A DNA stretch of 13,649 nt from Paenarthrobacter nitroguajacolicus JCM 14115 (lineage in GTDB: Bacteria > Actinomycetota > Actinomycetes > Actinomycetales > Micrococcaceae), in contig BBFS01000121.1 of assembly GCA_001313365.1 (NCBI GenBank), positions 1-13,649 on the forward strand. The letters run 5' to 3'. Below, piece by piece: positions 113 to 13,563 of the stretch. Below the pieces are notes generated by a model. That model saw only the letters and a list, made by a program, of their open reading frames with translations. It did no database searches and was not told where the DNA came from. Numbering within the stretch: the first letter of the stretch is position 1; each line of letters opens with the position of its first letter. A program made the position numbers and the translations under genes.

Positions 113-1953
113 TTACTTGAAGCTGGCTCCGACCAGCCCGCGGGTAGCCGCCACGAGCTTCATGGGGTCGGCAGAACCTGCCGGCGGAATGTATACGGCC
201 ACGGATTCGGCGAAGTTCAGAACCATGCCCGTGGTGGTTTCCTTACCACCGGCGAATACTGCGGAATCGTCTTCAAGCACCAGCTTGTCGCCTGCAGCCT
301 TGGGCGTGCCTTCGAAAGCGAAATCCAAACGCCCCACAACCACGGCGCCGCCGTCAGCTGTCTTCAGGACCACAGTCTGGTTGGTGACCGGCGTGTGCGT
401 GAACTTGAAGTTTGCGCTGGTTCCGTTCTTCACAGTGTCCGCCTGGTAGGCCAGTGCCCCTGCAATGTAAGGGGGGATGACTGCCCATCGGCCAACTTGC
501 TTCGGTTGGGCGACTCCGGATTCGTCAGCATTTCACTCAGGATTTCCAAGGCCTCATTACCGCTGTAGGCCAGGCCGGTGCTGTCGCTCGCCGGTACAGG
601 CTCAGTTCCGTTGCGCGGAATGGGGGGGAAGGACGGGAAGTTAGTGCCAGGCTGTAGCGGCGCACTGCCCCACAGCTTGTAGTTTTCACGAGGCGAAAGC
701 TGCACAAGGGTCAGGACCTGCGGCACCACGTTTCCTTCGCCCTGGGTGAGGGCGAAGACCGTTCGGGGGGGCCAGTCCCGCTTGGTGCTGATAACGCTGC
801 TCTGAAGCTTGGTGGCCCGCACCGGCATACGCGGCTCGTAGGCAGACACTGCGGACCGGATCTTGTAGTTCTGGGTCCGGATCTGGAGTTCCATCTTGTC
901 TACTCGCGGGGGGGCGAGTTTAGCCGCGTCCTTGGCTGCGTCCGCCGCATCCACAGTGCTCGCCACCTGCTCAAGGATCCGCTGCAGCTGGGATTCCAGC
1001 ATGACAGGCGTGGCGGCCTCAGCGTCGGCCGCAGGTGATGAGGTCGTGGTGGCCTCGGGGGTCGTGGTGGCTTGGGCGGCGACTGCCGTCCCTCCCACCA
1101 GGACGGCGGCCATCGTCGCGGCGAGAGCCGTGATGCGGAGGGTTGGACCTTCAGCGCCGGCACCCGGACGACGACCTTTGTTGCCAGCAGGCGGCTGAAC
1201 GGTGGGCGACTGAACAGTGGGCGGCTGAACAGTGGGCGACTGGGTAGTAGGCGCCTCAACGCCCGGCGACTTGGCAGTAGAGGACTGAACCGGGAGCGTG
1301 GTGGTCTCTCCGCCGTCGCGCGGCTCGTCGTCGTCGTGCTTGCGGCGGTTGCTGAGCGCTTTGGCGATGAACGGCAGCGCCGCTCCGATCAGGATGATGA
1401 TGATGCCCAAGACAATCAGCGGCACTGCCCAGGGGGGGTGGTGGCGTTGTTCGGGAACGTCATGGAAATCGACGACGGTGCAGGCTGGGTACCGTCGCCG
1501 GCAACCAACAGGGACCACTCACCATCGGCGGGAGGGTTCCAGGTGTAGTCCAAATCGCCGCTGGCATCCTCGGTGCTGACCCACAAATCGGATCCAGCCG
1601 GGGGGGAAGGCGCCGTGGCCTCGCCGTCAGCAGAGGACACCTCCAGCGATTTCTGGTCCGCAGAGACACCGGTCAACGTGTTGTGGGCAGTCTCGCCGAC
1701 CCAGGCTTCGACGTCGTCCGGGCGTCCCGTAGCGACGATGAAGTTGCCTTCACCCTGGATCTTGATCTTCACCGGCCCGTCATGGAGGGCGATCAACTTT
1801 TGGTCGATCACGGTCAGCGGGGGCAGCTTTGGTATCGCTGGGAACCGAAGCCGTCACGGTCTCGGAGGGGGGCCCAAAAGTCAGCTGGCCAATACCGGCC
1901 AGCATCGTCAGCAGGCCCAGCAGCACCAGCAAGGCTGCAGTCTTCAAACGCAC
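113..1953 (-). CDS. Multi-pass membrane/secreted protein of unknown function (frame-broken)
   Basis: I do not recognise a function; from memory it resembles actinobacterial proteins annotated DUF8094, and that name is unverified. Read from 1953, an N-terminal hydrophobic segment (TAALLVLLGLLTMLAGIG) is followed by a roughly 110-residue beta-rich stretch, a second helix (PLIVLGIIIILIGAALPFI), an Arg/Lys/Asp-rich linker, pentapeptide PTVQ(P/S) repeats, a third helix (ALAATMAAVLVGGTAVA) and a long C-terminal domain ending GLVGASFK. GTG at 1953 is preferred because AGGTGA lies about five bases before it; ATG at 1968 is the alternative. The frame breaks near 1819-1827, at the G7 run 1432-1438 and at the G6 run 471-476, and reads sensibly after one- or two-base corrections. 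In-frame G7 runs at 622, 765, 908 and 1600 probably add false Pro residues. The gene is divergent from the next one. Confidence 0.75.
1191..1280 (-). repeat. 15-bp tandem repeat, six degenerate units, coding for PTVQ(P/S)
   Basis: Six consecutive 15-base units begin at 1191, 1206, 1221, 1236, 1251 and 1266. Units 1-3 differ at only a few positions (gcggctgaacggtgg, gcgactgaacagtgg, gcggctgaacagtgg) and units 4-6 are more diverged. Because 15 is a multiple of three, copy changes keep the frame. On the minus strand they encode a Pro/Thr/Val/Gln linker between a membrane helix and the next hydrophobic segment of the host protein. Confidence 0.85.
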
Positions 1954-1968
1954 AGGATCACCTATCAT

Positions 1969-2171
1969 CAGCGGTCGTTGAACTTCAAGGGTAACCGTTT
2001 TGTTATCAGAGAGTCAGATCGAGGTGATCTCCCCCGACATCCCGAAAAGCCCGCCACCGCGCCGCTGCAGCGCCAATCCGCGCTCCTGATAGTGTGGCGA
2101 TGATCATGATATACGGGCCTTCCAGCGCCTAAGTCCACCCTGTACCACCACTGAAAAGGCAGCCAAACCGC
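1969..2171. promoter_or_regulatory. Divergent intergenic region between the 113-1953 gene and the AI-2E gene
   Basis: About 200 bases with no credible gene, holding the starts of two divergent genes, so promoters for both should lie here. An inverted repeat AGATC-gaggt-GATCT is at 2016-2030, and an A/T-rich patch with the palindrome ATGATCAT lies around 2100-2107. Neither strand shows a convincing -35/-10 pair, so I do not call individual promoters. Confidence 0.4.
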
Positions 2172-11822: not shown

Positions 11823-12109
11823 CTATCGGATCCCCCCGCTGTAGCCGCTTCGCCCAATTTGGCGTTGTCAGCAACAATGACCACGCGATCGTTGTCGACG
11901 GAGAAGAATCCGCCGTCAACAACTACTGCGATGCGATCACCGGAAACCGGCTGGATTGCCAGCTCGCCCGCGGCCATGATGGCCAGAAGGGGCGAGTGGC
12001 CCGGCAGGATTCCGATTTCACCATCACTGGTGCGGGCCTTCACCATCTTGGCCGCACCGGACCACACGAAGTGGTCCGCTGCGACAATCTCAACCTCGAG
12101 CTCAGCCAT
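11823..12109 (-). CDS. atpC: ATP synthase F1 epsilon subunit
   Basis: Epsilon is the small central-stalk subunit that couples rotation and can inhibit hydrolysis. ATG 12109 gives MAELEVEIVAADHFVWSGAA, then EIGILPGHSPLLAIMAAGEL and RIAVVVDGGFFSVDNDRVVI, the N-terminal beta-sandwich; the C-terminal helical part is very short, usual for high-G+C actinobacteria. As written the frame has no stop here and runs on into the DUF2550 region through the C6 run 11832-11837. With four bases in that run the protein ends AATAGIR with TAG at 11823-11825 (94 residues) and leaves a 10-base gap to the next ATG. With five it would end at a TGATG overlap. I prefer the first. It starts one base after the atpD stop. 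Confidence 0.93.
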
Positions 12110-12110
12110 A

Positions 12111-13563
12111 CTACTTGGTCTGTTCCTGGATCTTGGCCCACTGACGCTCGACGTCATCCAGGCCGCCGACGTTGAAGAACGCCTGCTCTGCGATGTGGTC
12201 CAGCTCGCCGTCACAGATGGCCGTGAAGCCTTCAACGGTGTCCTTGATGGACACGGTGGAGCCCTCGACGCCGGTGAACTGCTTGGCGGTGTAGGTGTTC
12301 TGGGAGAGGAACTGCTGGATACGACGTGCACGCGACACGACGATCTTGTCCTCTTCAGACAGTTCGTCAACACCGAGGATGGCGATGATGTCCTGGAGTT
12401 CCTTGTTCTTCTGCAGGATCTGCTTAACACGAACAGCCGTGTTGTAGTGATCCTTGCCGATGTACTGGGGGATCCAGAATACGGGACGTGGACGTCAGCG
12501 GGTCAACGGCCGGGTACAAACCACGGGAGGCGATTTCACGGGAAAGTTCCGTGGTCGCGTCGAGGTGTGCGAAGGTCGTTGCCGGAGCCGGGTCGGTGTA
12601 GTCATCAGCCGGCACGTAAATGGCCTGCATCGACGTGATGGAGTGGCCCTTGGTGGAGGTGATGCGCTCCTGGAGCAGACCCATCTCGTCAGCAAGGTTG
12701 GCTGGTAGCCCACAGCGGACGGCATGCGGCCGAGCAGTGTGGAAACTTCCGAGCCTGCCTGCGTGAAGCGGAAGATGTTGTCGATGAAGAGCAACACGTC
12801 CTGGTTCTGAACATCGCGGAAGTACTCCGCCATGGTCAGGGCGGACAGGGCCACGCGAAGACGGGTTCCCGGCGGCTCATCCATCTGGCCGAATACAAGG
12901 GCGGTGTCCTTAAGAACGCCTGCCTCTTCCATTTCAACCCAGAGGTCGTTACCTTCACGGGTACGCTCGCCAACACCGGCGAATACGGAAGTACCACCGA
13001 AGTTGCGGGCAACACGGGTGATCATTTCCTGGATCAGAACGGTCTTGCCAACGCCGGCGCCGCCGAACAGGCCGATCTTTCCACCCTTGATGTACGGGGG
13101 GGTGAGAAGGTCGATGACCTTGATGCCGGTCTCGAGCATCTCCGTGGAGCCTCGAGGGAAGCGAAGGACGGAGCCTTGCGGTGGATCGGCCAGTAGGCGT
13201 CTGCCTTGATCTCGGACTCTTCGACGTCCAGCGGCTTGCCGAGAACGTTGAAGATGTGGCCCTTGACGCCGTCGCCGACGGGCACGGAGATGGGAGAACC
13301 GGAGTCCCGCACAGTGGTGCCGCGGACGAGGCCGTCGGTTGCTGCAGGGAGATGGCGCGAACGAGGTTGTCACCCAGGTGCTGGGAAGTCTCGAACGTAA
13401 TGGTTTTCGTCTGGCCGTTGAGAGTGATCTCAGTGGTCAGAGCGTTGTAAATCGAGGGGATTGCGTCAGCCGGGAATTCGACGTCGACAACCGGACCAAT
13501 AACACGGGCAATGCGGCCGGTAGCACCGGCCGTAGCTACGTGTTCGGTAGCAGTGGCAGTCAT
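12111..13563 (-). CDS. atpD: ATP synthase F1 beta subunit (frame-broken)
   Basis: The catalytic subunit of the F1 head. ATG 13563 gives [20 protein letters not shown]; purine-rich GAGAGAG precedes it, and a GTG three codons upstream is the alternative start. Seen in order are [40 protein letters not shown], the Walker A motif [20 protein letters not shown] with the catalytic Glu region, the Walker B stretch [24 protein letters not shown] and [20 protein letters not shown]. The C-terminal helical domain ends AKIQEQTK. The length of about 484 codons is normal. The frame breaks near 13343, 13150, 12693 (each a missing G or C) and at G5 12467-12471 (four expected: [12 protein letters not shown]). 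G7 13096-13102 adds a Pro inside the near-universal LLTPY. Since the enzyme should be essential or nearly so, these breaks are best read as sequence errors. Confidence 0.97.

Follow-up and report, generated by a model that had tools for sequence, protein, structure and literature searches.

The 13,649-nucleotide stretch of DNA analysed here (the window) is contig BBFS01000121.1, positions 1 to 13,649 of the forward strand, from assembly GCA_001313365.1 of the soil bacterium Paenarthrobacter nitroguajacolicus JCM 14115. It contains 30 runs of exactly seven G or C bases, which are almost certainly absent from the DNA of the organism and arose as errors of length during base-calling and/or consensus building. 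The result is consequently a warning about data quality and not a statement about biology. The evidence lies in the excess of these runs, their private nature, their restriction to G/C, a threshold at a true length of 4, the clustering of written lengths at 7 and the clash with normal selection on the genes.

Excess of seven-base G/C runs

Exact counting gives 45, 18, 7, 30 and 2 G/C runs of lengths 4, 5, 6, 7 and 8, respectively, reproducing the hand count (about 30 sevens, about seven sixes and two eights) with which an earlier note had drawn attention to this stretch. The seven-base runs comprise 16 of G and 14 of C and are found on both strands and in nearly all genes, as that note had also stated; runs of at least six span the window from 471–476 to 13,096–13,102. 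The A/T runs show a normal fall-off, with 39, 5 and 1 of lengths 4, 5 and 7.

The claim that such an excess is not expected from composition or codon use was borne out by Markov models trained on the window, with 300 simulations for each order. Runs of seven per simulation average 2.9 and never exceed 9 in the first-order model, and average 1.2 and never exceed 6 in the second-order model, compared with 30 observed; the second-order test is conservative because the training sequence included the inflated runs. In 55 loci from relatives, totalling 800,719 bases (57 fetched and two duplicates dropped, with some overlap still present), there are 3 runs of seven, so that 0.05 would be expected per 13.6 kb. 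Whole genomes of the genus, 61 in number and 3.1–5.5 Mb in size, have 0–56 such runs each. The densest among 296 genomes of the class has 388 in about 2.9 Mb, or some 134 per Mb, and the density in the window is approximately 2,200 per Mb.

Comparison with relatives

The window is a piece of ordinary Paenarthrobacter/Arthrobacter chromosome, the nearest relatives compared being 91–92% identical. It was aligned with 11 relatives for the comparisons of sites and of insertions and deletions (indels). Two of these serve as references below: L001, which aligns along the window at 91% and has the same sequence by blastn as the Paenarthrobacter metagenome-assembled genome RL58_bin.064 (L005), and L006, Arthrobacter sp. 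M2012083, which aligns along it at 92.5%. At all 30 sites of seven, the 11 relatives have at most 5 bases. The same runs were thus sought in independently sequenced relatives and none longer than 5 was found, which supports the earlier suggestion of a sequencing or consensus artefact. Following the 80 four-base runs of L006 into the window, 21 are written as 7, 2 as 6, 8 as 5 and 31 as 4, and 18 are shorter. In the control comparison of L001 with L006, 53 of 74 four-base runs stay at 4, one becomes 5 and 20 are shorter; no run grows beyond 5.

The window carries 62 private indels, compared with 1–3 in each of the 11 relatives, a comparison in which any relative that has a close sister among the aligned sequences scores fewer private events by design. 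There are 24 insertions of three bases, 10 of two, 13 of one, one of five and one of 15, together with 13 single-base deletions. All 47 insertions of 1–3 bases have a G/C run of at least 5 within 8 bases, and all 13 deletions drop one G or C; short insertions thus outnumber deletions by 47 to 13. The 15-base insertion, in a tandem repeat, and the five-base insertion with one single-base insertion, at an intergenic hairpin absent from most close relatives, may be real.

The sites are listed below with strand, the run as written in the window and its length in L001, L006 or all 11 relatives.

471..476, +, G6: L001 and L006, 4
622..628, +, G7: L001 and L006, 4
765..771, +, G7: L001 and L006, 4
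908..914, +, G7: L001 and L006 read GGAG, longest run 2; private insertion +3
1432..1438, +, G7: L001, 3; L006, 4; most others, 5; private insertion +2
1600..1606, +, G7: L001, 2; L006, 4
1867..1872, +, G6: 10 of the 11 relatives, 5; private insertion, none scored
2230..2236, +, C7: L001, 2; L006, 4; alignment locally ambiguous, true length misassigned by placement
2586..2592, +, C7: L001 and L006, 3; private insertion +3
3184..3190, +, C7: L001 and L006, 4
3918..3924, +, G7: L001 and L006, 4
4131..4137, +, C7: L001 and L006, 4
5001..5008, +, C8: inside nucS; L001 and L006, 6
5395..5401, +, C7: L001 and L006, 5; +2 in nucS, open frame stops at 5416
5446..5452, +, C7: L001, 4; L006, 2
5709..5715, +, G7: L001 and L006, 4
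5732..5738, +, G7: L001, 4; L006, 3
5961..5967, +, C7: L001, 3; L006, 4
6072..6078, +, G7: L001, 2; L006, 4
6185..6191, +, G7: L001 and L006, 3; private insertion +2
6371..6377, +, C7: L001 and L006, 4
6780..6786, +, G7: L001 and L006, 4
7072..7077, +, C6: L001, 4; L006, 3
7220..7226, +, C7: 4 in all 11 relatives; cold-shock protein gains one residue
7895..7900, +, C6: L001 and L006, 5
8246..8252, +, C7: L001 and L006, 4
8471..8476, +, C6: L001 and L006, 5
9004..9010, +, G7: L001 and L006, 3; private insertion +2
10066..10072, +, C7: L001, 3; L006, 5; private insertion +2
10850..10856, +, G7: L001, 2; L006, 4
10867..10873, +, G7: L001 and L006, 4
10887..10894, +, G8: L001 and L006, 5
11084..11089, +, G6: L001, 5; L006, 3
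11287..11293, +, C7: L001 and L006, 4; aligner placed +3 at 11295
11584..11590, +, G7: L001, 3; L006, 4
11649..11655, +, C7: 5 in all 11 relatives; +2
11731..11737, +, C7: 4 in all 11 relatives
11832..11837, +, C6: 4 in all 11 relatives; +2
13096..13102, +, G7: 4 in all 11 relatives; AtpD (minus strand) gains one proline

Inferred true lengths

The true length of each run was taken as its written length minus its private insertions. On this basis, the 79 runs of true length 4 are written as 4, 5, 6 and 7 in 45, 9, 3 and 22 cases, and the 19 of true length 5 as 5, 6, 7 and 8 in 9, 3, 6 and 1 cases; those of true length 6 are written as 6, 7 and 8 once each. Of 295 true three-base runs, 291 are kept, 4 are shortened and none is lengthened, and at true length 2 there are 1,513 kept and 4 shortened. 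Altogether, 46 of 102 true G/C runs of at least 4 are lengthened, compared with 0 of 44 A/T runs; the single A/T run scored as growing from 3 to 4 has its inserted base next to a lengthened G run, at 9746, to which the insertion is assigned here. Two of the 30 seven-base sites (2230 and 11287) are misassigned by alignment placement, the latter scored as 7 to 7 because the aligner placed its +3 at 11295. The true length of 5 at 6185, 9004 and 10066 is derived from the size of the insertion rather than from the run length in a relative.

Lengthening sets in once the true length reaches 4, is confined to G/C and favours 7. The sharpness of the threshold (0 of 295 three-base runs lengthened, compared with 34 of 79 four-base runs) could possibly be a fingerprint of the responsible program. 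The replacement of runs of 4–5 by 7 proposed in the earlier note is indeed the commonest change, accounting for 22 true four-base and 6 true five-base runs, with the two misplaced sites not cleanly assigned. As a general description it goes too far, since 45 of the 79 four-base runs are unchanged, 9 become 5 and 3 become 6, and under half are affected. The profile was also incomplete, as the 13 single G/C deletions, which belong to it, had not been listed. A constant increment of three is unsupported: of seven inferred five-base runs that gain at least 2, six end at 7 and one at 8, although the relatives show an unambiguous 5 at only part of these sites. No strand rule for the expansion of four-base runs emerged, runs written as at least 6 comprising 14 of G and 11 of C and unchanged runs 19 of G and 26 of C.

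Coding constraint and protein consequences

Relative to the reference relative, the window has 125, 51 and 620 substitutions at codon positions 1, 2 and 3, so that 620 of 796 (78%) are at third positions. The corresponding numbers in the control pair are 177, 66 and 778, and from this similar bias it follows that the genes are under ordinary constraint; there is no sign of extra substitution errors. In 10 of 11 genes there are nevertheless frameshifting private indels. In total, 58 private indels were counted in the 11 genes, 33 of them frameshifting, with overlapping genes sharing events. Normal constraint and frameshifts in 10 of 11 genes are incompatible in one cell, and we conclude that the indels are not biology. 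Three of the genes illustrate the load:

4840..5550, + strand, nucS (endonuclease NucS): 3 of 4 private indels shift the frame
7551..10128, − strand, lysyltransferase-like gene of 857 codons with LPG_synthase_C in an open piece: 10 of 11 private indels shift the frame
12111..13572, − strand, atpD (ATP synthase beta): 4 of 5 private indels shift the frame

In atpC, the single frameshifting indel lies about nine bases from the stop codon. The eleventh gene, encoding the cold-shock protein, has no frameshift and one extra residue, which is absent at that place from the 3 displayed solved homologues of CspA. The extra residue of AtpD precedes the nucleotide-binding loop and is likewise absent from 3 displayed solved homologues.

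The earlier view that the artefact alters the reading of every frame break needs a correction: a change from 4 to 7 adds a whole codon and keeps the frame, so that the breaks arise from runs with +1 or +2 and from the 13 single G/C deletions. Annotation based on such an assembly would be faulty in its gene calls, its pseudogene counts and its protein clusters. Moreover, the in-frame +3 events each add a residue and can therefore slip past filters for frameshifts, to be taken up in protein databases as if they were natural variation. Such an assembly can be screened quickly from its sequence, with no need for reads, by checking whether G/C runs of seven outnumber those of six while A/T runs are normal.

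Origin of the artefact

In the explanation that we hold with high confidence, true G/C runs of at least 4 are often lengthened, most readily to 7, shorter G/C runs now and then drop a single base, and A/T runs stay as they are. The platform was probably one of signal-based long reads, most likely nanopore. That the fault arose in a polisher or run-length model that did not match the base-caller and over-compensated G/C homopolymers has in our judgement about an even chance. In the relevant passages on nanopore-only assemblies, polishing is described as yielding more insertions than deletions and as over-predicting homopolymers relative to the reads (PMC7500977); the errors illustrated there resemble those in the window in that insertions predominate, runs of at least 4 are involved, conserved genes are frameshifted and the authors discerned no clear pattern in the affected runs. 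The false stretches illustrated there include A/T, whereas the window is affected in G/C only, with 7 preferred. Passages of a second study describe C/G homopolymers beyond length 2 as read significantly worse by nanopore than A/T homopolymers, more so in G+C-rich species (PMC8486125). A third describes 'vertical streaks' in the run-length confusion matrices of MarginPolish/HELEN, attributed to numerical or encoding faults, in which, as here, several true lengths are drawn to a single written one (PMC7483855); as presented in that account, the streaks are infrequent, occur at high run lengths and concern human assemblies, unlike the change from 4–5 to 7 in the window.

Several points weigh against this interpretation. 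The usual nanopore homopolymer error, as described in PMC8486125, is a deletion and not an insertion of three, whereas runs of at least 4 are lengthened in the window. More than half of the true four-base runs (45 of 79) escape, and no flanking base predicts which of them expand (64 base-by-offset tests, best p = 0.0023, not significant after correction). The true lengths themselves are inferred from relatives at least 7% away. The signature was found in none of 355 distinct genomes making up the genus and class samples (61 and 296), and without a second genome an error common to the platform has no support from another instance. No published description of a G/C-only 4-to-7 signature was found, as judged on titles, abstract openings and passages.

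The strongest rival would keep the artefact but place it in the reads, through another signal- or flow-based chemistry or its base-caller, and not in a nanopore polisher; we regard this as rather unlikely, if still a serious contender. The error is indel-only and bound to homopolymers, with no visible substitution excess at constrained codon positions, a pattern that other homopolymer-limited platforms also give. An early nanopore base-caller, as described in PMC5889714, over-called short homopolymers in reads. A read-level origin is hard to reconcile with the absence of change in the 44 A/T runs and with the predominance of +3 over +1 among true four-base runs, 22 compared with 9. Flow chemistries would be expected to affect all four bases, by one-base errors.

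It is very improbable that the runs are real, as hypermutable G/C tracts resembling contingency loci or lying in decaying genes, tolerated or corrected by slippage. The commonest insertion, +3, does preserve the frame, and G tracts constitute contingency loci in other bacteria. Phase-variable tracts of that kind are found in particular surface or regulatory genes only, and relatives conserve them as tracts; those of the window occur in nearly all genes, housekeeping genes included, and at the 30 sites reach no more than 5 bases in any of the 11 relatives. Real tracts sit poorly with the involvement of atpD, nucS and the cold-shock gene, with the frameshifting of 10 of 11 genes whose substitutions are normally constrained, and with the failure of true three-base runs and A/T runs to lengthen. 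Moreover, changes from 4 to 7 exceed those from 4 to 5 and 6 combined (22 compared with 12), unlike stepwise slippage. We therefore reject real tract expansion on the lengths in relatives, the true-length pattern, codon constraint and the extra residues in CspA and AtpD. A variant in which four-base G or C runs became seven-base runs by single lineage-specific jumps of +3, the cell coping through slippage or by tolerating an extra proline or glycine even in AtpD and CspA, is more improbable still. An effect of chance or codon use, for which the G+C content of 61% might be invoked, is refuted by the run lengths of relatives carrying the same genes (3 runs of seven in 800 kb), the Markov maxima and the whole-genome counts, and we give it practically no credence.

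Gene content and minor observations

Pfam domains were identified in the open pieces for ATP synthase beta, NucS, amidohydrolase, cold-shock protein, AI-2E transporter, LPG_synthase_C, esterase and DUF2550; two open pieces have no Pfam match. The labels atpC, nagA, alpha/beta hydrolase and 'mprF-like' are presumed from gene order or fold and not from a domain test. A search of a plasmid collection with 11374–13649 gave no near relative; each of the 7 records found covers less than 80% of the query. Among 120 matches listed, no viral stretch matching a two-tract pattern has at least 5 runs of seven together with more sevens than sixes. L119 has four runs of seven in 1.6 kb and is ordinary-looking sequence by eye.

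The private single G/C deletions are at 3386, 4174, 4645, 5056, 8128, 9111, 9170, 9466, 10365, 11704, 12699, 13149 and 13341. Nine of the 13 lie within GGC/GCC, compared with a background of 27% of the G/C bases of L006 (binomial P = 0.002, the motif having been picked post hoc), and these may reflect a base-calling error linked to the motif or to a modification.

Two tandem repeats of 3.5 copies are present. The first, with a 15-base unit, is coding, at 1190–1242, and exceeds the 11 relatives by one unit (15 bases); the second, with a 19-base unit, at 3577–3643, covers the 3′ end of a gene on the minus strand, near 3626, together with neighbouring intergenic sequence. An inverted repeat at 3518–3556, with arms of C5 and G5, lies between convergent genes and is terminator-like by eye; it is absent from several close relatives, L001 and L006 among them.

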